In this document: positions 5,124 through 17,860 of the stretch, piece by piece
Position numbering within the stretch: the stretch's first letter is position 1
How the letters are laid out: every line of letters starts with the position of its first letter
NCBI RefSeq assembly: GCF_018860665.1
Contig: NZ_JAHKPK010000060.1
Location: 1-64,000 of the forward strand
From: Pacificibacter marinus
GTDB lineage: Bacteria > Pseudomonadota > Alphaproteobacteria > Rhodobacterales > Rhodobacteraceae
DNA length: 64,000 nucleotides
Direction: 5' to 3'
Made by a program: the position numbers and the translations under genes
Notes under the pieces: model-generated
Databases searched by the model: none
Told to the model about the DNA's origin: nothing
The model's input: only the letters and a program-made list of their open reading frames with translations

Positions 5124-6770
<1,647 letters not shown>

Positions 6771-6786
6771 ACCAACCGCAAACAAG

Positions 6787-6812
6787 GCCCGCAGGCATGT
6801 GTCTGCGGGCTG
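6787..6812 (+). terminator. hairpin after groEL
   Basis: GCCCGCAG at 6787-6794 pairs perfectly with CTGCGGGC at 6803-6810 around an 8-base loop, 17 bases after the groEL stop. The following TGTCTCGTCT is only mildly T-rich, so termination is likely but not textbook. Confidence 0.65.
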
Positions 6813-6884
6813 TCTCGTCTGCGTGCATATATAACTTAATAGATGCTGTCCAAAATGGACGGCACTGTTTCATTTAGAGAACCC

Positions 6885-7133
6885 ATGAAAAACGTAACTC
6901 TTGTTGCCGCGCTTGCGGCTTCTGTTGCTTTCTCTGCAAATGCTATGACAACCGAGATCGATACAGATGGAGATGGGATAGCGTCGCTTTCGGAGATGTT
7001 GGTTTCTCACCCAGAACTCACGGAAGATCTATTCCGCGAAATGGACACAGATGGTGATGGTTTTATCGACGACGATGAGATGGCCGTCGCAAATGAACTT
7101 GGCATGCTCGTCGATCCGGACATCGACATATGA
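6885..7133 (+). CDS. secreted small EF-hand calcium-binding protein
   Basis: An 82-residue protein with a signal peptide (MKN then a hydrophobic run to about residue 20, ending SANA) and two canonical EF-hand loops. These are DTDGDGIASLSE at residues 26-37 and DTDGDGFIDDDE at 54-65, each with acidic residues at positions 1, 3, 5 and 12. It is therefore expected to be periplasmic or exported and to bind two Ca2+ ions. The open frame extends 14 codons upstream, but the ATG at 6885 opens directly into the signal peptide. The stop overlaps the ATG of a small membrane-protein frame. No enzymatic domain is present and the role is unknown. Confidence 0.75.
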   Translation: MKNVTLVAALAASVAFSANAMTTEIDTDGDGIASLSEMLVSHPELTEDLFREMDTDGDGFIDDDEMAVANELGMLVDPDIDI

Positions 7134-7156
7134 TGCCGGATTTCAGAGTAAGTCCT

Positions 7157-7348
7157 ATGCAGTATCGTGCAGTGTTCACATGGGTCTTTGCTGCATCCGG
7201 CCTATGGCTGATGCGGCCTCCATTTTTGTTTTTTGCGGGCAAAGCAGCCAATAGCGATCTTGTCGTCGATGAGGCAGTGCTACTGATGATTTCGGGCTTT
7301 TGGGCTCTCGTCATCGTAGGTTCACGGTTGATCGTTCGAATGCTCTGA
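7157..7348 (+). CDS. possible small membrane protein
   Basis: A 63-residue frame (from ATG 7157; an ATG at 7130 overlapping the EF-hand stop is an alternative) with two hydrophobic segments, about residues 5-25 and 38-56, separated by a short polar loop. It ends RLIVRML. I do not recognise a family. Its last codons run into the edge of the neighbouring IS1182 remnant, so the original C-terminus may have been longer or different. Spacing to the EF-hand gene suggests a shared transcript. Low confidence that it is expressed. Confidence 0.35.
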   Translation: MQYRAVFTWVFAASGLWLMRPPFLFFAGKAANSDLVVDEAVLLMISGFWALVIVGSRLIVRML

Positions 7349-7349
7349 T

Positions 7350-8593
7350 CCGGACAGCATTTTGCTTTTGAAGGGCAATCTTGGCATGTCAGCTTTAGAG
7401 CACGATATCGCATTGTACCTTTGCCTGATGGGCCAAGATTTGGATCGGAATAGTTCCGGCGGAACTGTTTGAGCGGCTCCCCTTCAGGGCAGATGTATTG
7501 GTTATTTTCGGGGTCCCGTTCGAAGATGAGCCTTGTCGCGCTATTGGTCCGAGCGACAATGGCGAATGCGCGACCAAACGCCTTCTACCTTTTTGGCCTG
7601 GTCGATGACTGGGATATGGGGTGCGATGCCACGCTTGACCAACCAGCCGAGCATTGGACCTGTTCCATAGGCGGTGTCTGCGATCAGCCGTTCTGGATCA
7701 ATGTCGTGTCGGTTTTTGATCCGATCCAACATGGTGCGCACCGAGCCGACCTCAGCTTGTCGGATCGAGCGCGTGCCTTCAACGTCCACGATGATACTGT
7801 GGTCGGTATCGATGAGATAATTGGTGGAATAGCTAAAGAACGCAGGGCCTTTGCGTGCCGCTGTCTATTACCGGCAGTGCGTTGCGCAACAATGTCACGA
7901 AAGGCACTGGCTTGCTGGATCAGAATGAGACGTGAACTTGGGTTCAACCTCAGATGCGGCACCGAAAACAGCATCGTCCAGAACGTCCAAATACTCCTTC
8001 ACAGCGCGGGGCGCATCAGCGGGATCAATGGCGCTGCGATCCCAATCGTCCTTCGGCGTTGAGTTCTGTTTGTTCGCGTTCGACCATAAGTTGATCCCCC
8101 AGATCAATTTATTTTCGGTCTCACCCTCAATCAAGCTGGCGTCTGCGGCAAGACGCTGCCCGCTGACCAGGCCATCTGCGATGCACCGGGCAACAGTCTT
8201 CTCGAACAGGTGCCTGAGCAAAGCGCTTTCCCGAAAGCGGCCATGCCGGTTCTTGGAAAATGTCGAATGATTGGGCACAGGATCAGACAGATCAAGGCGA
8301 CAAAACCAGCGATACGCGAGGTTCAAATGGACTTCTTCGCACAGCCGACGTTCAGATCGGATGCCAAAGCAATAGCCTACCAACAGCATGCGGATCAACA
8401 ATTCAGGATCAATCGATGGGCGGCCTGTGTGGCTGTAAAACTCGGCTAAATACTGGCGGATATCACTTAGATCAACGAACCGATCAATTGACCGCAAAAG
8501 GTGATTTTGCGGCACGTGACCTTCAAGTGAGAACTCATAAAACAGCGCGGCCTGTGCTTCCTGCTTCGGTCCCATCATCGCAAAATCCTCCAA
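7350..8593 (-). pseudogene. IS1182-family transposase, interrupted
   Basis: The N-terminal 230 residues are intact, with the family landmarks HLLRSIDRFVDL, GRPSIDPELLIRMLLVGYC, RWFCRLDL and HSTFSKNRHGRFRES (residues about 36-140). The frame runs up to TSHSDPASQ and then meets a TGA inside a 39-bp insert. Beyond the insert the catalytic part resumes (GPAFFSYSTNYLIDTDH, DVEGTRSIRQAEVG, ADTAYG). A second frame change follows near 7550-7580, after which QYICPEGEPL and the Cys-rich CQDCPSKAKCCP tail are readable in another frame down to about 7350. Removing the insert would rejoin DPASQ to WTAARKGPAFF exactly as in family members. This is a decayed DDE transposase. Confidence 0.8.
7866..7904 (-). 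repeat. 39-bp mini-insertion, copy 1 (inside IS1182 transposase)
   Basis: On the minus strand this 39-base segment begins CCTTTCGTGACATTG and ends CGCACTGCCGGTAATA, with TTGCGCAA in the middle. It splits a conserved Trp codon (CAGTG^GACAG) of the transposase. The same outer sequences, with a different centre, interrupt an unrelated IS3 element at 15703-15743. The two copies match at 14 of 15 bases on the left and 15 of 16 on the right, and both sit at a TG^GA junction. No target duplication is visible. Confidence 0.75.
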
Positions 8594-8675
8594 TCAATAA
8601 AGGAATTGAATCAGTGAATGGGCACCAGATCAAGGAAGAGTTTTTCAACAGAATTAGCCCCTCGTGACGATCTAC

Positions 8676-8747
8676 CCGAACGGCCCTAAACCGCCGTTGA
8701 CTGGGGATCCAATCGCTGTATTGCAACTTCCCTGTCGCAGCAGTTAG
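8676..8747 (-). repeat. dispersed intergenic repeat, copy A
   Basis: The minus strand reads through AAGTTGCAATACAGCG to TAGGGCCGTTCGGGTAGATC. A diverged second copy lies at 11795-11870 in the same orientation (AAGCTGCAATGCAGCG to CAGGGCCGTTCTCGTCGATC). Similar GGGCCGTTC-containing non-coding tracts are, from memory, common in Roseobacter-group genomes near IS scars. No coding function is apparent. Confidence 0.5.
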
Positions 8748-8927
8748 CCCCATCAGCGCTGATGCCAGATATTGCAAAATTCGAAACAAACATATCTTCA
8801 AGTTCGGATTGTCGCCATATTGTTGCCCTTTTTGCAGGGTAACAATCACTCAAATTACAATGGCACCTTTTCTATTTACTACGTGTTTTCAGTCGCCTGC
8901 AAAAGCCATACATTCAATAGGTGAGAA

Positions 8928-11369
8928 ATGTCTTCAGATCACAAGGCGCGATGGATCCAAGGGATCAGTCTGGTTTTTTTTCTTGGACTATCCTTTTCTT
9001 CATTTTTCTTGGTGCACAAAGTTGCACACGGTAGATCGCAAGAATCCTTTCAGGTTTTGGTGGATCAAAGCCTCACTTCACTGGATCGACGTTTCGAAGA
9101 CTATAGTCGGCTCCTTGATGGCCTGAATGGCCTAGTCATAGCATCTGATGGGATAACCGCGTTGGAAATGTCAAACTATGCTAAAGCTCTAAACCTGAGC
9201 GATAGTATGTTGATGCTTGATGCCATCGGTCTTGCCTCGATGGCCCCACAAGAAAGTGGCCTGCACGGTCATTCGGTCGCATTTTCTGCTGGCGTTGGAC
9301 AATTGGAAAGTATGCCATCTATGCTTCAGGCTGATCATTTTATCGTGCAATTTATTGAGCCACCCACCAACCTTCAAAAGTTTCTGGAGCTGGATTTTGC
9401 AAGCAACCCTGATCTCCTTGCGATCGCAAAAAAAGCACGTGATACAGGTCAAACTTTTGTAACTGGTCACTCCCCAGATCTCGTTCCTCAAATCGGCGGC
9501 ACCCGGATGTTTATGCTTAAGCCGATCTACAAGCCACAAAAAGGTGACTTTATTGGCTTTGCATTCGCGGTTTTGAATGTCGAAGATTTCTTCAACGGCC
9601 TCACATCTGCGCAAGGCAAAATGATAGAAATACAAGCCGAATTTAATGCACTGACAGCAATTGATAGGATCAAAACGTTACCCGCGACGCCCATTGACAC
9701 ATCAGACTACAGTCGTCGCCAGTCAATTGAAAAATTCGGACAAACCTTTTCTATTGCATTTAAAAGTACGCCGCAGTTCGACGCTATTCAGCCATTCCGA
9801 GCAAGGTGGATTGTTCTGGCACTAGGGCTTTTAATTACGACACTGGTCAGCACAATCTTGCGTGTATTGATCAAGAAAAGCCATACAATCGCTATCACCA
9901 TAGCGCAAAAAACCCGAGACCTTGAAACGCAAGACAAAGAGAAGCGCTCCATTCTTGAGAATGCGATGCTTGCGATCCTCTCGGTCAATAAATCAGGCGA
10001 AATTCTCCAAGCGAACGAGGCTGCGCTGAAGCTTCTGTTGCCGCTCACGAAACACATGAGGCTGGTTGGAAAGTCTCTTGGTGACTTGCTACCGAACTTG
10101 GATCTGCAAGGTGTTGATGGGTGGTCAAAACTACATGTGACATCGTCGATCAAGACCGCAGAGCCATTGATTATCGAAGTCGAAAAGAAAACGTGGTTCA
10201 CTGCAGAAGGCGAAGAGCGGACGACGTTGCTCATGCGCGATATCACCGTCACCGAACGACATGCAAAGGAAATTGCCGAGGCTGAGCAACGATGGAACCT
10301 CGCTTTGAGAAGCGTTCAAATCGGCGTTTTTGATATTGATTTACAGCGTGGAACCTCAGTCGTCTCCGATACTTGGTTCGATAACATGCATACTGTAGCT
10401 CTTCCAAACTGCAAAAACCCCTATCAAGAACAGATGGTTCGCATGCATATGGATGATCTTGCCCTTTTCAAAAAAGCCGAAAGGGACTGTATCGAAGGCC
10501 GTACAGAACGCGCTGAAGTTCGTTTTCGCATAAATGTCGCAAATGATGAATGGCGCTGGATCAAATCCGATGCCGTCGTGGTCGAGCGCGCCCCAGATGG
10601 GACCGCCCTCAGGATGCTCGGAATACAGACGGATGTGACAGAAACCTTCAAACTGGAACGGATGAAACGTGATTTCGTCGCCACTGTCAGTCATGAACTT
10701 CGTACGCCTTTAACGTCGATCAAAGGCGCGCTCGGACTTTTGCAAGGTCAGTCACAGATTGAAAAAAACCAGATTACTGACCGATTGATCGAGATTGCCC
10801 TGTCAAACTCTGATCGCCTTGCCAGTCTTGTTGACGACATTCTGGACATGGAAAAAATGAATTCTGGCAATTTGAACGTTGAAGTGAGTTCGTTTAGTCT
10901 TAACGAGATTTTAAGTGACGCATCCCAACAGATCGAAACTTATGCCTCGCAGTGGAACGTCGGGGTGGAAATGCTGAAGCCTGAAGTTGAACAGATGATC
11001 TCAACAGATAAAAAGCGTGTAATACAGGTTTTGACAAACCTGCTATCGAACGCATGTAAGTTTGCGCATTCCGAGACAACAGTTAGGCTTACGGCCGAAG
11101 TTCTGCCAACCCATATAAAAATTTCAGTGCGCAATTTGGGGCCGGGCATACCTGAAGAGTTTCGCAACAAAATATTTCAACCCTTCTCTCAAGCGGACAA
11201 CTCCAACGCACGTCAGCGTGGTGGTACCGGCTTGGGCTTAAGTATCTCGCGCACCTTGATTGAATTGATGGGCGGCACGATCGGATTTGAGAGTGAGCCA
11301 GACCAAGAGACCGTTTTCTGGTTCACCTGTCCTTTGACTGAGACTTCAGAAATCTTAGCTGTTGCATAG
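8928..11369 (+). CDS. CHASE-PAS-PAS sensor histidine kinase (orphan)
   Basis: A membrane-bound hybrid-less sensor kinase of 813 residues. A transmembrane helix (about 11-30) is followed by a periplasmic CHASE-type sensor with the typical FIEPPTNLQKFLELDF stretch and the TGQTFVTG turn, then a second helix near 292-316. Two PAS regions follow (about 340-440 and 450-575), then HisKA with the phospho-acceptor His in SHELRTPLTSIKG (H589). The HATPase domain carries the N box NLLSNACKF near 704, G1 GPGIPEE near 739 and G2 GGTGLGLSIS near 765. CHASE domains sense small extracellular ligands, but the ligand is unknown here. No receiver domain or response regulator is adjacent, so its partner must be elsewhere. 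It sits between IS remnants in the accessory region. An AGGTGAG-like ribosome site precedes the start. Confidence 0.9.
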   Translation: MSSDHKARWIQGISLVFFLGLSFSSFFLVHKVAHGRSQESFQVLVDQSLTSLDRRFEDYSRLLDGLNGLVIASDGITALEMSNYAKALNLSDSMLMLDAIGLASMAPQESGLHGHSVAFSAGVGQLESMPSMLQADHFIVQFIEPPTNLQKFLELDFASNPDLLAIAKKARDTGQTFVTGHSPDLVPQIGGTRMFMLKPIYKPQKGDFIGFAFAVLNVEDFFNGLTSAQGKMIEIQAEFNALTAIDRIKTLPATPIDTSDYSRRQSIEKFGQTFSIAFKSTPQFDAIQPFRARWIVLALGLLITTLVSTILRVLIKKSHTIAITIAQKTRDLETQDKEKRSILENAMLAILSVNKSGEILQANEAALKLLLPLTKHMRLVGKSLGDLLPNLDLQGVDGWSKLHVTSSIKTAEPLIIEVEKKTWFTAEGEERTTLLMRDITVTERHAKEIAEAEQRWNLALRSVQIGVFDIDLQRGTSVVSDTWFDNMHTVALPNCKNPYQEQMVRMHMDDLALFKKAERDCIEGRTERAEVRFRINVANDEWRWIKSDAVVVERAPDGTALRMLGIQTDVTETFKLERMKRDFVATVSHELRTPLTSIKGALGLLQGQSQIEKNQITDRLIEIALSNSDRLASLVDDILDMEKMNSGNLNVEVSSFSLNEILSDASQQIETYASQWNVGVEMLKPEVEQMISTDKKRVIQVLTNLLSNACKFAHSETTVRLTAEVLPTHIKISVRNLGPGIPEEFRNKIFQPFSQADNSNARQRGGTGLGLSISRTLIELMGGTIGFESEPDQETVFWFTCPLTETSEILAVA

Positions 11370-11471
11370 TCCAGATTTTTTCCTCAATTTTCCCCCTATC
11401 TTTGAGATGGGGGCACGGGAGTTCAGACAAGTAATTGAGGTGGATCAACTTGTGAGAAAAATGACCTAAAA
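11370..11471. other. intergenic with weak hairpin after the sensor kinase
   Basis: CCCCCTATCTTTGAGATGGGGG around 11393-11414 can fold into a hairpin of about nine pairs (one G-T). It is not followed by a T-run, so it is only a possible end signal for the kinase transcript. Nothing else is seen before the IS3 remnant. Confidence 0.3.
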
Positions 11472-11730
11472 ATGCCGAAACGAAAGAACTATACCCCTGA
11501 TTTTAAGGCTAGGGTTCCGCTTGAAACGGTCCGTAAAAAATGACCGAAACTGAGTTATCTGCAAAATACGAAGTGCACCTGTTTCCGGCAGGTATTTGCG
11601 CACAAACACTGAAGAGCGACACAGATTGGAATTAGGAAGCGAGCCTTGATTAAGAATATGGCTGCGGCGTTTTCTAAACGAGGCAGCGATCCTGCGTAGA
11701 TCGATGAAGTTTTATTAATTTGGAATGTCA
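11472..11730 (+). pseudogene. IS3-family OrfA remnant
   Basis: A decayed IS3-type small transposase subunit. It opens MPKRKNYTPDFKARV then LETVRKK, typical of the helix-turn-helix N-terminus, and meets a stop. The next piece (MTETELSAKYEVH) is in a shifted frame, and a third piece (KRALIKNMAAAFSKRGSDPA, TAG, IDE) matches the later part of OrfA. There are therefore at least two frameshifts and a nonsense codon, and OrfB is absent. It differs in sequence from the IS3 element at 15418-16029. Confidence 0.65.
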
Positions 11731-11794
11731 AATTTACTTTTCCTAGTATGGCATCCCTACATTGCGCCTGCAGCTAAGGTCCGAAACCCGCGCG

Positions 11795-11870
11795 AAGTGT
11801 CGATCGACGAGAACGGCCCTGAGCTGACATTGGTCGTTCCTATCGCCGCTGCATTGCAGCTTACCCAAAG
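11795..11870 (-). repeat. dispersed intergenic repeat, copy B
   Basis: The diverged partner of the repeat at 8676-8747, readable on the minus strand from TTTGGGTAAGCTGCAATGC to GGGCCGTTCTCGTCGATC. It lies between the IS3 OrfA remnant and the hydantoin-type cassette. The rest of the 11731-12089 stretch shows no gene. Confidence 0.5.
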
Positions 11871-12089
11871 CAGACATTGACCCGTTAGCGCAGCATTTTG
11901 ACGTTCTGGATGGCGGCATCGCGGGACAGAGCGGACCTCTGTTGATTGATCTTCGCTGACGCAGCATCGCTTTGCACGCGCGCCGAGATTATTGCTGCGT
12001 AACGGCACAGGTCGTTGATGCGGTCATTGCTGAACGGTTCTGCAGGCCTCATCCAAAACTACTCCTACGTCGCATAGTGCCTGAGAACG

Positions 12090-12124
12090 ATAGACGAACG
12101 ACAGAAAGCCGTTCGTCTATTTTT
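12090..12124. terminator. perfect 11-bp hairpin flanking the NCS1 transporter gene
   Basis: ATAGACGAACG (12090-12100) pairs perfectly with CGTTCGTCTAT (12110-12120) around a 9-base loop. TTTT follows on the plus strand and AAAA precedes the hairpin on the minus strand. It sits 23 bases beyond the stop of the minus-strand transporter gene, so it probably ends that transcript, even though the T-run is better on the opposite strand. Confidence 0.65.
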
Positions 12125-12146
12125 AAGTGCCGATCTTTTCTACGCG

Positions 12147-13496
12147 TTACTCGGCTGGCGCGGCTGCACCGCTTTTGAGGTCCTCCTGTGGTCGGAACCG
12201 TTGTGCGGCTGGCAGGTACTGCATCAGCAGATAATAGCTCAGGCCAGCAGGGATGAGGCTGGCATACCAAGAGATACCAGAAAACATTAACGCGAAGACC
12301 ACGCCGATGGCTGATGCGATGAATCCGGCCCAGTTCACGCCAGCGTAGGGCCCGGTCGCGTCGTAATGCGTGGAAATATCGAGCTTCTGTTTACGGATCA
12401 CGTAGTAATCCACCACCATGACCGCGAAGATCGGACCGAGGAAGGCCGAATAGGTCTGGATGAAGAGGTTCAGACCGTCCGCGCTCTGGTCCTGCACCAG
12501 CTTCCAGGGAAAGGTGCAAAAGGCGAGAAGCCCGACGAGAATTGCCGACTTTCTAAACGAGAGCCCGAAGGTATCCATCAAGGCATAGGCGGGCGGAACG
12601 ACGTTGTTCAGGATGTTGGTGGTAAGCTGTGCGAAGGCGATGAACAGGAGCGTGACCACCAGAAGCACGGGGTTGTCCACGGCAGATGCGAAGACCTCGA
12701 TCGGGTCGACCACGCCAGTCGCAGAGGACACCATGATGCCGATCATGCCCATGAACAGCGTCGCGGGAAGGATAGAGTTGGCGTAAATGGCCACTTGTTT
12801 AAAGGGCCCGACGGTTTTGCGGAGTTCACGCGAATAATCCGACACGTTCAGCATCATGGTCGCGTAGATGCCCATGAAGAGCATCGTAGCCCCCCAGAAC
12901 GGCGCACCCCAAGTGCCCTCGGCGTCAATGAGATTGGTCCCGATCGCGTCGCCATAACGGTTCAGAACCGATATGAACATGTAGATCAATGCGCCAATGA
13001 TAAAGACAGAGCCAATGTTCTCGACCCATTTGATGCCATGGAAACCGAAGATCGACAATCCGATCTGCAGAAACTGAAACGCGACGAAGTAAAAGACGAT
13101 GTTGTCGAAACCGAACATCTGGGCGGAGACGAGGTTCAGGGCGCCCGCGCCGACCCAGCTTTGAAAACCGAACCAGACGATGGCGGGGACCGACCGGACA
13201 AGAGCCGGCAGTTTGTTGCCCGCAAACCCGAAGGAGGAGCGCGCCTGCACCATCATCGGGATGCCGTATTTGTGTCCCGCCTGACCGTTTATCGCCAGAG
13301 CGACGCCAATCACGGTGCAGCCAATTGCGATGGCCACGATCACCTGAGCGAGATTCAAGGTGCCGACGAGACCTGAGCCTACCGTGAATGTACCTATCGA
13401 CACGCAGCCGCCTAGCCATGCGAACAGATAGGATACGGGGTCCATGATTCTTTCTTTGGACGGCGCGAGGGGGGCTTCTAGATTGGCCTCTGTCAT
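12147..13496 (-). CDS. NCS1-family nucleobase/hydantoin/allantoin:cation symporter
   Basis: An inner-membrane transporter of 449 residues with about twelve hydrophobic helices, of the NCS1 family (Mhp1, PucI, cytosine permease type). It takes up hydantoins, allantoin or nucleobases with Na+ or H+. Characteristic stretches are GIPMMVQARSSFGF (helix 2 region), VWFGFQSWVGAG, the NVSDYSR motif near 215-221 and AQLTTNILNNVVPPAYAL near 290. GGAGACC precedes the ATG. It is the second gene behind the racemase (32 bases away) in a minus-strand pair divergent from a GntR/FCD regulator. Base composition is more GC-rich than the flanks, consistent with transfer into the island. Substrate is inferred from the racemase neighbour. 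Confidence 0.85.
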   Translation of the reverse strand: MTEANLEAPLAPSKERIMDPVSYLFAWLGGCVSIGTFTVGSGLVGTLNLAQVIVAIAIGCTVIGVALAINGQAGHKYGIPMMVQARSSFGFAGNKLPALVRSVPAIVWFGFQSWVGAGALNLVSAQMFGFDNIVFYFVAFQFLQIGLSIFGFHGIKWVENIGSVFIIGALIYMFISVLNRYGDAIGTNLIDAEGTWGAPFWGATMLFMGIYATMMLNVSDYSRELRKTVGPFKQVAIYANSILPATLFMGMIGIMVSSATGVVDPIEVFASAVDNPVLLVVTLLFIAFAQLTTNILNNVVPPAYALMDTFGLSFRKSAILVGLLAFCTFPWKLVQDQSADGLNLFIQTYSAFLGPIFAVMVVDYYVIRKQKLDISTHYDATGPYAGVNWAGFIASAIGVVFALMFSGISWYASLIPAGLSYYLLMQYLPAAQRFRPQEDLKSGAAAPAE

Positions 13497-13528
13497 TTTT
13501 TGGTCTCCTGTGGGGGGGATTGTTTCGA

Positions 13529-14227
13529 TTATTTTCTGCGCGGCGTCGCGTAGGCTCCGATTTTACTCGTGAGAATTCGCGCGCCGACCAGCGCCTCTGC
13601 GAACTTGGTTGCGGCGGCGACACCATCGATCACTGGTATGCCGGTCTCGACGCTCAGCTCGCGGGCGAGGTCCGCCATGCCAGCGCATCCGAGAACAACA
13701 GCTTCGGCACCGTCTTCTTTTGCAGCTTTCAGGATCTCGTCCCGGATGAGACTGCGAGCGTTGCTGCCCGGCTCCTCGAGAGCCAGCACCGGTATCGAAG
13801 CGCAGCGGACTCTGCGGCATTGGTGCGAAAGCCCGTAGCCGCGCACAAGATGTTCGATGAGAGGAACCGACCGCGGCAGCGTTGTGACGATCGAAAACGA
13901 GGTGGCGATCATGCTCGCGGCTTTGATGCCCGCTTCGCACAGACCGATGACCGGACCGGTCGCAATCTCGCGGCAGGCGCCGATCGCAGGATCATCGAAA
14001 CAGGCGACGATGATGGCGTCGGCACCGCCCGCCTCGGCTTCCGCGACCTCTCGAAGAAGGTGCGGCGCGCACATGATCTCGTCGTAGTGACCCTCGATGC
14101 TGGCGGGCGCGCCACTGGCGGTCCTGCTTTCAATTTCGACTCCATCTGCTGCGACGGCTCGGGCTGCGGCGGCGATTTTCGTGGTCATGGCCGTGGTCGA
14201 ATTCGGATTAATGATGGTTAACTTCAC
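13529..14227 (-). CDS. hydantoin/allantoin racemase-type Asp/Glu racemase family protein
   Basis: A 232-residue cytosolic enzyme of the HyuE/HpxA branch of the Asp/Glu racemase superfamily. It starts with a GTG preceded by GAGAGG and the conserved MKLTIINPNSTTAMT. The two catalytic Cys of a cofactor-independent racemase are present in IIVACFDDP and VVLGCAGMADL, with GLCEAG between them. It would interconvert enantiomers of 5-substituted hydantoins or allantoin. Downstream is a matching NCS1 transporter, but no hydantoinase or carbamoylase lies in the window, so the pathway here is incomplete. Maleate isomerase-like activity is a less likely alternative. Confidence 0.8.
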   Translation of the reverse strand: MKLTIINPNSTTAMTTKIAAAARAVAADGVEIESRTASGAPASIEGHYDEIMCAPHLLREVAEAEAGGADAIIVACFDDPAIGACREIATGPVIGLCEAGIKAASMIATSFSIVTTLPRSVPLIEHLVRGYGLSHQCRRVRCASIPVLALEEPGSNARSLIRDEILKAAKEDGAEAVVLGCAGMADLARELSVETGIPVIDGVAAATKFAEALVGARILTSKIGAYATPRRK

Positions 14228-14263
14228 GGGTGCCTCTCAAGTTGTTGGTTCGATCATACAAAA

Positions 14264-14275
14264 ATTGTTCACAAT
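14264..14275. promoter_or_regulatory. candidate GntR/FCD operator
   Basis: ATTGTTCACAAT is an inverted repeat (ATTGT - 2 bases - ACAAT) in the 139-base divergent region between the racemase and the FCD regulator. Regulators of the FCD subgroup commonly bind ATTGT-like palindromes. A second half-site-like TGTACACAAA follows at 14279. Assignment is by position and form only. Confidence 0.45.
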
Positions 14276-14366
14276 CTATGTACACAAAACTTGCAACTTA
14301 TGCTTTGAGCCAATGTTACGCGTAATTTGATTGCGCCCGACGTTGGTAACGATTAAATTCTGCACA

Positions 14367-15044
14367 ATGACAAATTCGATCGAGCAAAAAATCATTCACC
14401 ACGTTCTGGACGCGATCGCGGATCAGAAATTACATGCCGGCACGAAGCTCGGTGAGCAGGAGCTTGTCGGCGTTTTCTCGTGCTCTCGTGCACAAATTCG
14501 GCGCGCGCTCGCGATGCTGACAGGGTATGGTGTCATCGATCTGATCCCCAACAAGGGGGCTTTCGTTTCCACGCCCAGCGAACGGGAATCTCGCCATGTT
14601 TTTGAGGCCAGACGCGCCATTGAGGCGACCATCTGCAAAAATACTGTGCAGAATGCAAAAAGTCCCGAAATCGCGCGCCTGCGGGCCCATCTGGTAGAGG
14701 AAAATGCTGTCACCGCACAGACGAGCCGCGCGGAAGTGCTCCGTCTATCGCGGCGTTTCCACATGATTCTCGCGGAAATCGGACAAAACGACGTTCTCGG
14801 GCAATATCTCGAAGAACTGACACTGCGCAGTTCGCTCATTCTCGGTTGTTACGGCACACAACGCTCAAGTCTTTGTGCAACCGGCGAGCATGAGAAAATC
14901 GTCGAGGCCATCGAGGGGGGCGATGCGGATCTTGCTGCCGCGCTTCTCGACCATCACCTCAGTCATCTTGAAAACGATGTAGACTTCAGCGCGCGCCGAG
15001 GGTCAGCTACTGCCCTCGCCAGTATTCTGGACGTTGCTACGTAA
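14367..15044 (+). CDS. GntR-family regulator with FCD domain
   Basis: A 225-residue DNA-binding regulator. The N-terminal winged helix is recognisable (GTKLGEQELVGVFSCSRAQIRRAL, broken here into LGEQELVGVFSCSRA and IRRALAMLTGYGVIDL). The C-terminal FCD ligand domain shows EARRAIEATIC, FHMILAEIGQND and the HEKIVEAIEGGDADLAAALLDHHL region, whose His residues bind metal and ligand. ATG 14367 gives the usual N-terminus; a TTG at 14331 in frame is less likely. It is divergent from the racemase-transporter pair and presumably represses that pair in response to a hydantoin, ureide or related acid. Confidence 0.85.
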   Translation: MTNSIEQKIIHHVLDAIADQKLHAGTKLGEQELVGVFSCSRAQIRRALAMLTGYGVIDLIPNKGAFVSTPSERESRHVFEARRAIEATICKNTVQNAKSPEIARLRAHLVEENAVTAQTSRAEVLRLSRRFHMILAEIGQNDVLGQYLEELTLRSSLILGCYGTQRSSLCATGEHEKIVEAIEGGDADLAAALLDHHLSHLENDVDFSARRGSATALASILDVAT

Positions 15045-15179
15045 AAAGCGATGAGCGGCGCGCCTATTGGAGTTCAGCGACGTGTCTCCGATCAGAGGAC
15101 TGCTTTAAACCGTTGGACGACACGTGCGCCATGTAAAACGCGGAGCAATAATGGGCCACAGAAGCGGCTGCGCATCGCA

Positions 15180-15417
15180 GTTGTAGCGGAGTAAAAATCC
15201 GCCAGTTTGTGCCCTTCGTTTAGTCGGAGGGCGGGAGATGTATTCTGTGGATATTTATAATCGTGTGCGCCGTGCTTGCTTGAAGGACGGTATGTCTGCT
15301 CGAGAAGCGGCGCGTTATTTCAACAAGGATCGTATGATGATCGCGAAGATGCTGCGCCATGAACGGCCACCAGGGTATAGGCGCTCAGACGTGCCACGCC
15401 GGCCAACGCTTGACGGT
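15180..15417 (+). pseudogene. IS21-family IstA, N-terminal fragment
   Basis: From ATG 15238, about 60 residues match the start of IS21 transposase IstA: MYSVDIYNRVRRACLKDGMS, AREAARYFNKDR, MIAKMLRHERPPGYRR. The helix-turn-helix is complete, but the catalytic domain and the IstB gene are missing. The frame is cut at PRRPTLDG by the left end of an IS3 element at 15418. The bases before it (TGTAGCGGAGTAAAAATCCG, from about 15182) resemble an IS21 left terminus. No IstA continuation is found beyond the IS3 element, so a rearrangement, not simple insertion, produced this junction. Confidence 0.65.
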
Positions 15418-15483
15418 TGAAGTGGTCCGGCAAATTTGGACAGCGTGCTAAGGTGTATCCAACACAAATGAATGGATACGAGA

Positions 15484-15702
15484 ATGACGAAACGACGGAA
15501 CTGTTCCGACAAGTTTAAAGCGACTGTGGCCCTTGAAGCATTGCGCGGTGACAAGACGGTTCAGGAGATTGCAGCGAAGCGCCAGCTGCATCCCACGCAG
15601 GTGACGACATGGAAACGGCAGGCCATTGATGGGCTGACGGGTGTGTTTTCTGACAAGGTCCGGAGAGCGGAAGACAACGAGGCCGAAGTCAAAATATCAA
15701 TG
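15484..15702 (+). pseudogene. IS3-family OrfA, truncated
   Basis: About 73 residues of OrfA with the helix-turn-helix: MTKRRNCSDKFKATVALEAL, GDKTVQEIAAKRQLHPTQV, TTWKRQAIDGL. The frame reaches EVK and then joins directly to ISM, which belongs to the ISMDG motif of OrfB, showing that the intervening orfA end and orfB start were deleted. Immediately after ATG (15700-15702) the 41-bp insert begins. Confidence 0.75.
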
Positions 15703-15743
15703 CCTCTCGTGACATTGGCTTTACCAATGCACTGCCGGTAATA
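15703..15743 (+). repeat. 41-bp mini-insertion, copy 2 (inside IS3 element)
   Basis: It begins CCTCTCGTGACATTG and ends TGCACTGCCGGTAATA. Its centre CATTGG-CTTTA-CCAATG forms a perfect 6-bp stem. It sits between ATCAATG and GATGGG, the two halves of an ISMDG motif of the IS3 transposase, again at TG^GA. It is the partner of the 39-bp insert at 7866-7904, which lies in a different transposase family. Confidence 0.75.
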
Positions 15744-15968
15744 GATGGGTAGGGGCAATATCTCGACAATATCTTCATCGAACGGCTATGGCGGTCACTC
15801 AAACAGGAGGCTGTTTATCTGCATGAATTGCAGGACGGGTTCCAAGCCAAACGCGTGATTAAAGAATGGATCAGCTTCTACAATACCGAGCGGCTTCACA
15901 CGGCCCTCGACAAGCGGCCCTCTGACGACGCATTTTTTGGCACAGAACGATCCCAGAAGGCGGCATGA
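15744..15968 (+). pseudogene. IS3-family OrfB, C-terminal fragment
   Basis: The last part of the DDE integrase domain: after DG and a TAG codon the frame reads GQYLDNIFIERLWRSLKQEA, then VYLHELQDGFQAKRVIKEW, FYNTERLHTALD and a normal end at 15968. The final catalytic Glu region (IERLWRSLKQE) is present, but the two catalytic Asp residues are gone with the deletion. Not functional. Confidence 0.75.
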
Positions 15969-16015
15969 AACTGAACTGATTACATCTTAGCTGAGCCGCA
16001 AACCTGTCCGAATAA

Positions 16016-16258
16016 GTGGGACCACTTCATACAACACTTCCAAAATGGCTTGAGGGTCGCCGTTATTGCACGATTAAAGATCTGATGCGTCTTTTTGGCG
16101 TTTCACGCGCAACCATTGACCGCTGGTGCCGCGAAAATGAAAGCTTTCCCAGCAAACACAAATTTGGCAATCCGTTCAATGAGAATTGCAGCACGCGCTT
16201 CAGTGTTTCTGAGGTAAAATCTTATATTTCAAAGGTGGAACAGAACCAGGTAGACTAG
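16016..16258 (+). CDS. AlpA-like excisionase / MerR-type helix-turn-helix protein
   Basis: A short DNA-binding protein with the AlpA/Xis pattern: a helix-turn-helix CTIKDLMRLFGVSRATIDRW, a wing with FGNPFNENCSTRFS and a final helix VSEVKSYISKVEQ. AlpA-type proteins control excision of prophages and integrative elements. The only in-frame starts are a GTG at 16016, inside the terminal repeat of the adjoining IS3 element, and an internal ATG at 16085. The original 5' end and promoter have therefore probably been replaced. It lies 190 bases from the 3' end of tRNA-Phe, the usual position for such a gene next to an attachment site. No integrase remains. Confidence 0.6.
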   Translation: MGPLHTTLPKWLEGRRYCTIKDLMRLFGVSRATIDRWCRENESFPSKHKFGNPFNENCSTRFSVSEVKSYISKVEQNQVD

Positions 16259-16447
16259 ACAAAATAGTTAGATTTAGGTTTTCAAAAGAATAGGGAGGGC
16301 CGGATAACTCAGATATCGACACAGTAATGTTATAGCCTAGCTTCTCTGTGCCACTCATGTGCCACTGAGCTAAAATATACCAAAATAGCAGCAACTCCAG
16401 CCGAAGCTGAATGCATAGTAAGATACTGTAATGAAAGAGTTTAAAAA

Positions 16448-16522
16448 TGGTGCCCAGGGGCGGAATCGAACCACCGACACGAGGATTTTCAATCCACTGC
16501 TCTACCCCTGAGCTACCCGGGC
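16448..16522 (-). tRNA. tRNA-Phe (GAA)
   Basis: A 75-base cloverleaf with encoded CCA. Acceptor GCCCGGG/CCTGGGC has one G-U pair, the D arm is GCTC...GAGC, the anticodon loop TTGAAAA gives GAA, and the T arm is GGTGG-TTCGATT-CCGCC. The anticodon stem GTGGA/TCCTC contains a T-T mismatch at its second pair, which is unusual for this tRNA. The 3' end faces the IS- and AlpA-containing region, and the 5' side faces yacG. This fits use of the tRNA 3' half as an integration site. Confidence 0.93.
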
Positions 16523-16601
16523 ACCGGATGAACACTTGCGCGTTCTGGGTTCGCGTTGTTTAGTCTTCGTTACGGGTGGTGTCCAGAGGTAAAGTGCACA
16601 T

Positions 16602-16820
16602 TTAGTGGGGTTTTTTTATCAGCCCATCCAATAGGTCATTTTGTGCGATGCGTTGGCCTTCTTCATAGGCGCGCATGACTTCTTCTGGGTCTTCTTCACG
16701 CATACTTGGCACGGCGTAAGTCCCGCTCAGCCAACGCGAAAGATCAACATCAGCGCAACGTTTCGAGCAGAAAGGGCGATATTTGACATCGCCCTCTTTT
16801 TGACAGATCGGACAACTCAT
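16602..16820 (-). CDS. yacG: DNA gyrase inhibitor YacG
   Basis: A 72-residue zinc-binding protein that binds gyrase and inhibits its DNA binding. Four Cys ligands are at C3, C6, C18 and C22 (CPIC ... FCSKRCADVDLSRWL), followed by the typical DLSRWLSGTYAVP block and an acidic C-terminal helix. Its ATG overlaps the stop of the RNase gene by four bases, so it is translationally coupled, and it is the last gene of the maf-RNase-yacG run before tRNA-Phe. Confidence 0.95.
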   Translation of the reverse strand: MSCPICQKEGDVKYRPFCSKRCADVDLSRWLSGTYAVPSMREEDPEEVMRAYEEGQRIAQNDLLDGLIKKPH

Positions 16821-17860
16821 TTCAGGATGTCCTGAAGAGGAACACGCTCGCGTTTCTTTTGAATCTCGTAGTGACCCAAGGGTGTGAAACCCGCCAAAAC
16901 AACTTCAGACCCATCGGCTTTGAAGGCCGCACGCAGGGATTGTTCAAAGGCCCGGTGTTCTTTTTTCGGCATAGGGGCCAGGTCGATGGTGATTTGACCG
17001 GCAAGACCGCGCAGGCGCAGTTGGCGCGGCAAATCACGGGCCAGTGCCATATTGGCTTTCAGGCCGGCGGCGGCAGAAAATTCGCCGCCTGTGTTCACAT
17101 CGACCGAGACCAAAGCGCGGGTCGGTTCGATATAGGCATGGCCACCGGTTTTCAGCGACACGCGCGTGGAAATCACATCATCGATCAGCTCGTAAACGCC
17201 GTAATTGTCAAAGGCGTCTTCAGAGTCGTCAAACACATCAGGTTTGTCCCAATCACGCCATGCCGCATCCCAAGCATCGGGACCATCCAGCAACAATTCA
17301 GGCGCGCCCGCGATATCCGCTGTGACAGCTTCGGCCAGACCACGCATATTTGCGATGTCGTCGGCGATCTCTGCGCTGTTTGCACCCTCACAGGCAGACC
17401 GTAAAATAAGCCCCATGGTCTCGTCCGCGCCTTCCATACCCGCATTGGCCAGATCATGCAGGCGCAGCAACTCGTCGTCGTCGCGAATCGCGCGCGAAAT
17501 GTTCAAACCCGGCGCGTCAGGCGTGATGATGGCGTATTTTGATTTGAAAATCAGACGCGTTGTGACAGGAACGGCTTTGCCATCTTCGGACATATGCGTG
17601 ACCTGCACTAGCATCGGGGCACCGGGTTTGAGGCCCTTGTTGCCTTTCAAATAAGCGCTCTCATTATTCGGCATGTCCAGCATCGCGCCGCCCATGCCTT
17701 TGAGCATCCGCCCTCCACGAGCGCGATAAATCGAGCCAATTGCGGGCGGGGCGTCGTCGCCAGAGGCGTCAACGATGAGATCTTCCAAACGGCCATCTTT
17801 GATAAAGGCGGCGGCTTTTTGGTTTTTGATCATGCCTAGGGCGATGACTGTACCGATCAT
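16817..17860 (-). CDS. rng: short-form ribonuclease E/G family protein
   Basis: An RNA endonuclease-like protein of 347 residues, clearly shorter than E. coli RNase G (489). The N-terminal S1-like region, the catalytic Asp blocks [14 protein letters not shown] and [14 protein letters not shown], and an [10 protein letters not shown]-type central block are present. The region that carries the zinc-link Cys pair in larger RNase E/G proteins is missing, as is the large C-terminal scaffold. This short form is usual next to maf and yacG in Rhodobacterales. It overlaps both neighbours by four bases. A role in rRNA or mRNA processing is inferred from the family. Whether the reduced enzyme keeps full activity cannot be judged. 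Confidence 0.85.

Follow-up and report, generated by a model that had tools for sequence, protein, structure and literature searches.

The stretch of Pacificibacter marinus DNA analysed here (the window, 64,000 nt) contains two inserts of about 40 bases in transposase genes, and these are members of a large and apparently undescribed family of tiny DNA hairpins. We regard it as probable that the inserts are non-autonomous mobile mini-elements of about 41 nt, built of constant ends and a hairpin, that are moved in trans by a putative enzyme. The family consists of a unit of nearly fixed length that makes no target duplication, often lies 5' of GAY, is found in either orientation, and sits almost always in decaying IS genes. 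To our knowledge, such hairpin elements would rank among the smallest mobile elements.

A sequence-only reading of the window had placed a 39-nt insert in an IS1182 transposase and a 41-nt insert in an IS3 remnant, and both are present there, with flanks recognised by NCBIfam profiles (Table 1). The 39-nt copy reads CCTTTC-GTGACATTGTTGCGCAACGCAC-TGCCGGTAATA and is matched by the covariance model described below at 7863-7905 (51.1 bits). It is flanked by two parts of an IS1182 transposase (NCBIfam NF033551), at 7910-8587 (E 1.7e-54) and 7568-7864 (E 6.4e-18). An empty IS1182 homologue in another locus (L250), with flanks 75% and 77% identical, gives an inserted length of 39 nt and the very boundaries drawn in the earlier reading. 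The 41-nt copy reads CCTCTC-GTG-A-CATTGG-CTTTA-CCAATG-CAC-TGCCGGTAATA (model match 15702-15746, 52.7 bits). On its 3' side, 15753-15965 is IS3 (NCBIfam, E 7e-14); on its 5' side, 15484-15702 is an OrfA-type piece with weak NCBIfam matches only (IS66 TnpA 3.2e-7, IS3 4.5e-5). An internal deletion seems, from the sequence, to have linked OrfA to the end of OrfB, and for this reason the IS3 is called a remnant. A stop codon follows immediately after the element in it.

Table 1. Hairpin elements and their host genes in the window.
Feature	Position	Strand	Remarks
Hairpin mini-element, 39 nt	7866..7904	minus	sense, inside IS1182-family transposase gene; followed by GAC
Interrupted IS1182-family transposase gene, host of first element	7500..8587	minus	lower limit approximate; profiles cover 7568-8587
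Hairpin mini-element, 41 nt	15703..15743	plus	sense, at KISM^DG of IS3 transposase remnant; followed by GAT
IS3-family remnant, host of second element	15484..15965	plus	OrfA start apparently fused to OrfB end by internal deletion

The end pattern GTGACATTG-N{4,30}-GCACTGCCGG occurs at 2 places in the window and at 0 in 100 shuffles, so chance occurrence was rejected; a third exact-ended copy lies elsewhere in the P. marinus genome. The centres of both inserts had been described as self-complementary. When folded as single-stranded DNA, the 41-nt copy indeed beats its shuffles (z -2.20), but the 39-nt copy does no better than its own (z 0.33) and is the weakest of five examples folded in this way (z -2.51 to +0.33). 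A search of Rfam 15 over positions 6500-17000 of the window with E up to 5 gave four matches, none overlapping the inserts, and the sole match above gathering score is a tRNA at 16451-16522.

In the family as a whole the ends are constant, with NCCTCTC on the left and TGCCGGKCARYG on the right, and the hairpin lies in between. The right end of the sub-type found in the window carries TAATA. The hairpin is about 6-8 bp long and in most cases has a 3-bp clamp and a single bulged base; its core comes in covarying types: GTG-A-CATTGC...GCAATG-CAC, GGG-A-CATTGC...GCAATG-CCC and GGC-A-GATTGC...GCAATC-GCC. Further cores include CATCAC/GTGATG, CATCGC/GCGATG and others, and bulge-free forms also occur. 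In an alignment of 27 rows, 5 of 12 pairs are altered on both sides, and 0 of 500 shuffles attain the covariation score. Because these rows had been chosen by hand, the test was redone blind to pairing: among 91 cores from sequences picked by their ends alone, 67 fold better than all 20 shuffles and 24 do not. Larger pair counts were also obtained, but from a finder that rewards pairing.

A loose pattern gave at least 117 stretches in the genome collection. The covariance model (R1), built from 27 distinct copies, matches all 92 retained pattern loci, with 133 matches at E<=0.01; the other 25 loci, separated by eye, have no R1 match at E<=0.1 and were dropped. In the P. marinus genome there are 33 R1 matches at E<=1, and 19 of these are strong (E<=1e-4). 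Matches were found in 19 of 20 family genomes at E<=0.5, in a set picked for having exact matches, and at E<=1e-4 in 52 of 149 Rhodobacteraceae genomes sampled at one per genus, P. marinus included. In a sample of the class, 5 of 289 genomes matched at E<=1e-5, namely P. marinus, two other members of the family and two genomes from outside it. A consensus query matched 107 of 72,556 plasmid records (E<=0.1), and the genera among the 60 matches listed are ones that we take to be Rhodobacteraceae in the wide sense. The same query had no match in phage records, and the exact GTG-type pattern had none in viral contigs. No such element is named in the literature surveyed, in which most subscription journals fall outside coverage.

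Insertion is precise. A homologous empty site was found at the DNA level in other fetched loci for 120 of 207 distinct contexts, and the possibility that these bases are native IS sequence was therefore rejected. The inserted length is 41 nt in 76 of the 120, 40 nt in 19 and 42 nt in 13 (108 in all at 40-42), and 34-39 or 43-44 nt in the remaining 12. Only five filled/empty pairs have both flanks at least 90% identical, and they give 41 nt four times and 40 nt once. The difference is clearest in Sulfitobacter: an IS30 of Sulfitobacter pontiacus S1704 (NZ_CP049346.1) contains three inserts of 41, 41 and 40 nt, and an annotated IS30 of Sulfitobacter sp. SK025 (NZ_CP025811.1) is without all three, with 24 mismatches over about 1.6 kb aligned. 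In P. marinus itself, contig C21 has two IS3 copies with one element in common and two that differ. The BLAST segment across one of the differing elements shows 4 mismatches in 606 bp; the second difference is anchored by about 20 nt only, followed by a masked stretch. Filled and empty copies are a record of either gain or precise loss, and do not in themselves give the direction. The sequence-only reading had suspected a tiny mobile element whose ends are conserved and whose hairpin core varies, and had looked to further copies and to uninterrupted homologues for confirmation; the many copies, the covarying cores and the precise empty sites all bear it out. It is worth noting that at one P. 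marinus copy (L180 929-971, G000:C18) the two flanks match two different element sites of the IS3, which would fit a recombination event between two elements that removed the intervening stretch.

Repeats of 2-9 bp flanking the elements are within shuffle range at 112 sites, giving no sign of a target site duplication. At 51 of the 112 sites the element is directly followed by the triplet GAY, for which the background is 3.4%. The fixed TG^GA junction claimed earlier for the two window copies thus survives on its right side as GA(Y); the left flank is variable across the family, and TG is no family trait. By eye, insertions also seemed enriched at catalytic D/E codons.

The flanks of the elements, when profiled piece by piece, belong to IS3, IS5, IS1182, IS21 (istB), IS630 and IS30, plus an IS481/IS3 type. 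A pooled scan of 119 flank pieces adds IS6, IS110, IS66, IS91, IS982 and ISNCY models; it counts families without assigning them to individual pieces, related models overlap, and the figures refer to the best 25 of the 28 Pfam families and the best 25 of the 34 from NCBIfam. Among the families listed, the non-IS models are XdhC, DNA methylase and tyrosine recombinase/integrase, with one piece each. The XdhC match would fit a gene adjoining an IS3 remnant at C18:929, and the integrase match, in L197, can be read as part of an IS91-type unit. In P. marinus, 18 of the 19 strong copies are in IS genes, as judged from a profile match or from homology to an IS copy that has one. Close to the remaining copy (C6:337) is a 53-aa piece that resembles IS3 OrfA by eye, with no match in either NCBIfam or Pfam. 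Twenty more regions were picked from nine other genomes, and the local finder detected copies in 19 of them. Here a profile match or sequence identity places 16 of 19 in IS genes (with the profile match some 230 bp off in the case of L317), and two (L322, L324) are in IS by eye only, having no IS profile match. The last one (L319, G022:C1:2485222) lies in what looks by eye like a RelE-like toxin gene, next to an antitoxin gene of the NadS type. No other clear non-IS host was seen, and because of this copy in an apparent toxin-antitoxin toxin gene the preference for IS is not absolute. An ORF comparison left 20 of the 207 contexts unplaced, several but not all of which were assigned later, and no copy between genes was recognised among the contexts classified.

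One well-populated site shows how these insertions recur and what becomes of the host. Of 50 copies of the IS5 site NR^IEIMFG, 19 are scored as filled and 31 as empty; 18 of the 31 empty rows were verified by motif, and some others exceed the query length and may hold missed inserts. On a tree of these copies there are 12 state changes, at least 5 of them forced by starred branches, so this one nucleotide has been filled or cleared several times independently; 22 of 500 shuffles came out as low, and the filled/empty label is therefore also mildly clustered. The upstream 80 codons are free of stops in 8 of the 19 filled copies and in 15 of the 18 empty ones examined, a rough contrast, as three filled rows are near-copies and one stretch contains a second element. 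For orientation, the 207 contexts gave 119 usable protein alignments, which after removal of 9 ambiguous ones formed 60 site clusters, of which 38 are in sense and 22 in antisense orientation. The codon phases 0/2/1 number 16/13/8 in sense and 7/6/5 in antisense; orientation and phase counts are approximate, as some reference ORFs are in the wrong frame. Both orientations, all codon phases and the decay of interrupted IS5 copies together point to insertion at the DNA level and not to bypassing. An interrupted IS can still spread: in Dinoroseobacter shibae pDSHI04 an element pair 307 bp apart is present at three places with equal scores, so that the interrupted IS has multiplied. Neighbouring elements within one IS were divergent in 27, convergent in 6 and in the same orientation in 17 of 50 clustered pairs. 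Insertion into resected single strands, suggested by the divergent neighbours, was not relied on, because hot spots recur and the pairs are not independent. In one P. marinus locus (L171:916-2076, G000:C36) the transposase frame stays open across an in-frame 42-nt antisense element, and genes like this one may be annotated as intact.

Among known systems, REP palindromes are the closest, above all the CGTC type. REPs, with their GTAG and CGTC superfamilies, are hairpins of 20-40 bp with tagged ends and many copies and are mostly extragenic; those of the CGTC type occur mostly in alpha-proteobacteria, lack a known transposase and mainly form head-to-head dimers (Di Nocera 2013, PMC3733652). The likeness lies in a small multicopy hairpin with constant ends; the present elements differ in sitting inside IS genes, in their CCTCTC / TGCCGG ends and in their preference for GAY. 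REP tags anywhere in the element are rare: among 151 distinct elements, one has GTAG and three have CGTC. Both tag and location differ from those of REPs. MITEs are likewise small, mobile and non-autonomous, but the present elements have no exact 5-nt terminal inverted repeat (0 of 151; an exact 4-nt one in 2, and at least 3 of 4 letters matching in 71) and no target duplication at the 112 sites. The mobile bypassing elements of yeast mitochondria are tens of nt long, contain a hairpin and lie within coding regions; here, in contrast, both orientations and all codon phases are found and the host genes decay. The Rickettsia palindromic elements are palindromes in alpha-proteobacterial genes, but they are longer, in frame and in ordinary genes, and compared with this general description the present ones are about 41 nt, mostly out of frame and in IS genes. 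Integron attC sites are hairpins with extrahelical bases that are recognised by shape; the extrahelical base is alike, but their core motifs (RYYYAAC ... GTTRRRY) occur in 0 of the 151 elements. The family is thus nearest to mobile palindromic repeats, although it may well turn out to be a kind of its own.

Several candidates for a mobilising enzyme or a longer parent were looked for. The RVT_1 profile has no match in the P. marinus genome (95% complete) and matches 3 of 14 control genomes, which speaks against a retron or group II product of a resident reverse transcriptase, one of the natures considered in the sequence-only reading. The Y2 transposase profile PF04986, looked for with IS91-type rolling-circle satellites in mind, has no match in P. 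marinus, and none in the control genomes either. It could be that the elements are REP-like palindromes moved by a resident HUH Y1 transposase (RAYT/TnpA), which would account for the size class, the hairpin with constant ends and the missing target duplication, and genomes with Y1 have the element somewhat more often (8 of 15) than genomes that lack Y1 (44 of 134). We nevertheless find this quite improbable, as Y1_Tnp is found in 15 of the 149 family genomes and the element in 52, Y1_Tnp was not found in P. marinus with its 19 strong copies nor in genome G021 (a further genome, G054, is not among the positives), REP tags are nearly absent, and the copies are in IS genes. Another possibility is that a larger transposon with these ends enters IS genes and then excises, leaving the ends joined. 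Such footprints would have constant ends, near-fixed length and no target duplication, but they are an unlikely source of the family: the left end CCTCTCGTGACATTG, which represents the GTG type only, occurs 27 times, spread over 18 of 394 family genomes, and is accompanied by the right end in 24 of these occurrences, and no paired long element was found in 1.68 Mb of fetched loci. The cores, moreover, are highly variable and yet their arms are complementary, which joined ends do not predict. Of the three left ends without a right end, one (L160, G413:C45:162446) belongs to a hairpin element whose loop is apparently interrupted by another IS3 (TGACCTGCCCCC end), one (L141) is an apparent chance match in a gene, and one (L135) is unexplained.

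Mobile mini-elements moved in trans remain our preferred reading. The element would travel as a folded single strand, and the putative enzyme would recognise the shape of the hairpin plus the constant ends. Dead IS copies would provide a harmless landing place, and their mobilisation in trans by intact relatives would let the element persist. A more specific version is considerably more tentative: the family may be a gene-less hyperparasite of IS, a hairpin of about 41 nt whose putative enzyme reads shape and not sequence and acts on DNA that becomes exposed while an IS transposes. Each move would copy one arm from its partner, which would keep the two arms matching. The location in IS could also be explained if insertion were random everywhere and copies survived only where the gene is dispensable, as IS genes are, and the copy in the apparent toxin-antitoxin gene would agree with this. 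We give it a small chance of being right, as no intergenic copy was recognised among the classified contexts and all but one of the strong P. marinus copies are in IS genes. Alternatively, a host defence might write hairpins into transposases to disable them, in keeping with the near exclusive location in IS, the seven matches in a single IS (see below) and the decay of interrupted IS5. This seems rather unlikely, since no defence gene is linked (RVT_1, Y1 and Y2 were looked for), an interrupted IS has still multiplied, and the same toxin-antitoxin copy lies outside any transposase. Finally, a translational bypass or splicing element that leaves the transposase working (bypass elements were also named in the earlier reading) would be small, hairpin-bearing and inside genes, and the 42-nt copy that keeps its frame open would suit it; the mixture of sense and antisense clusters and of phases, and the stops upstream of filled IS5 sites, make it very improbable.

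If the elements are mobile mini-elements, then their niche is other mobile elements. They constitute a natural record of IS inactivation across marine Rhodobacteraceae, in about a third of the family genomes sampled, and may account for unannotated IS pseudogenes. They also suggest that there is an enzyme, as yet undiscovered, that inserts a hairpin into DNA with precision, and such an enzyme is a potential tool. With filled and empty copies that are nearly identical, gain and loss can be tested in cultured strains such as Dinoroseobacter shibae and Sulfitobacter.

One IS3-family element of P. marinus has seven hairpin-element matches (G000:C7:147031-148984; L162, L172). Its terminal repeat contains ACTCTCGGGACA, which is common to the GGG-type hairpin element; this could be chance, or could reflect a relation to IS ends. 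A MITE-like short repeat near L183 1841 (G000:C42) has the same end as this IS3 (TGTAGATATGTAC...).
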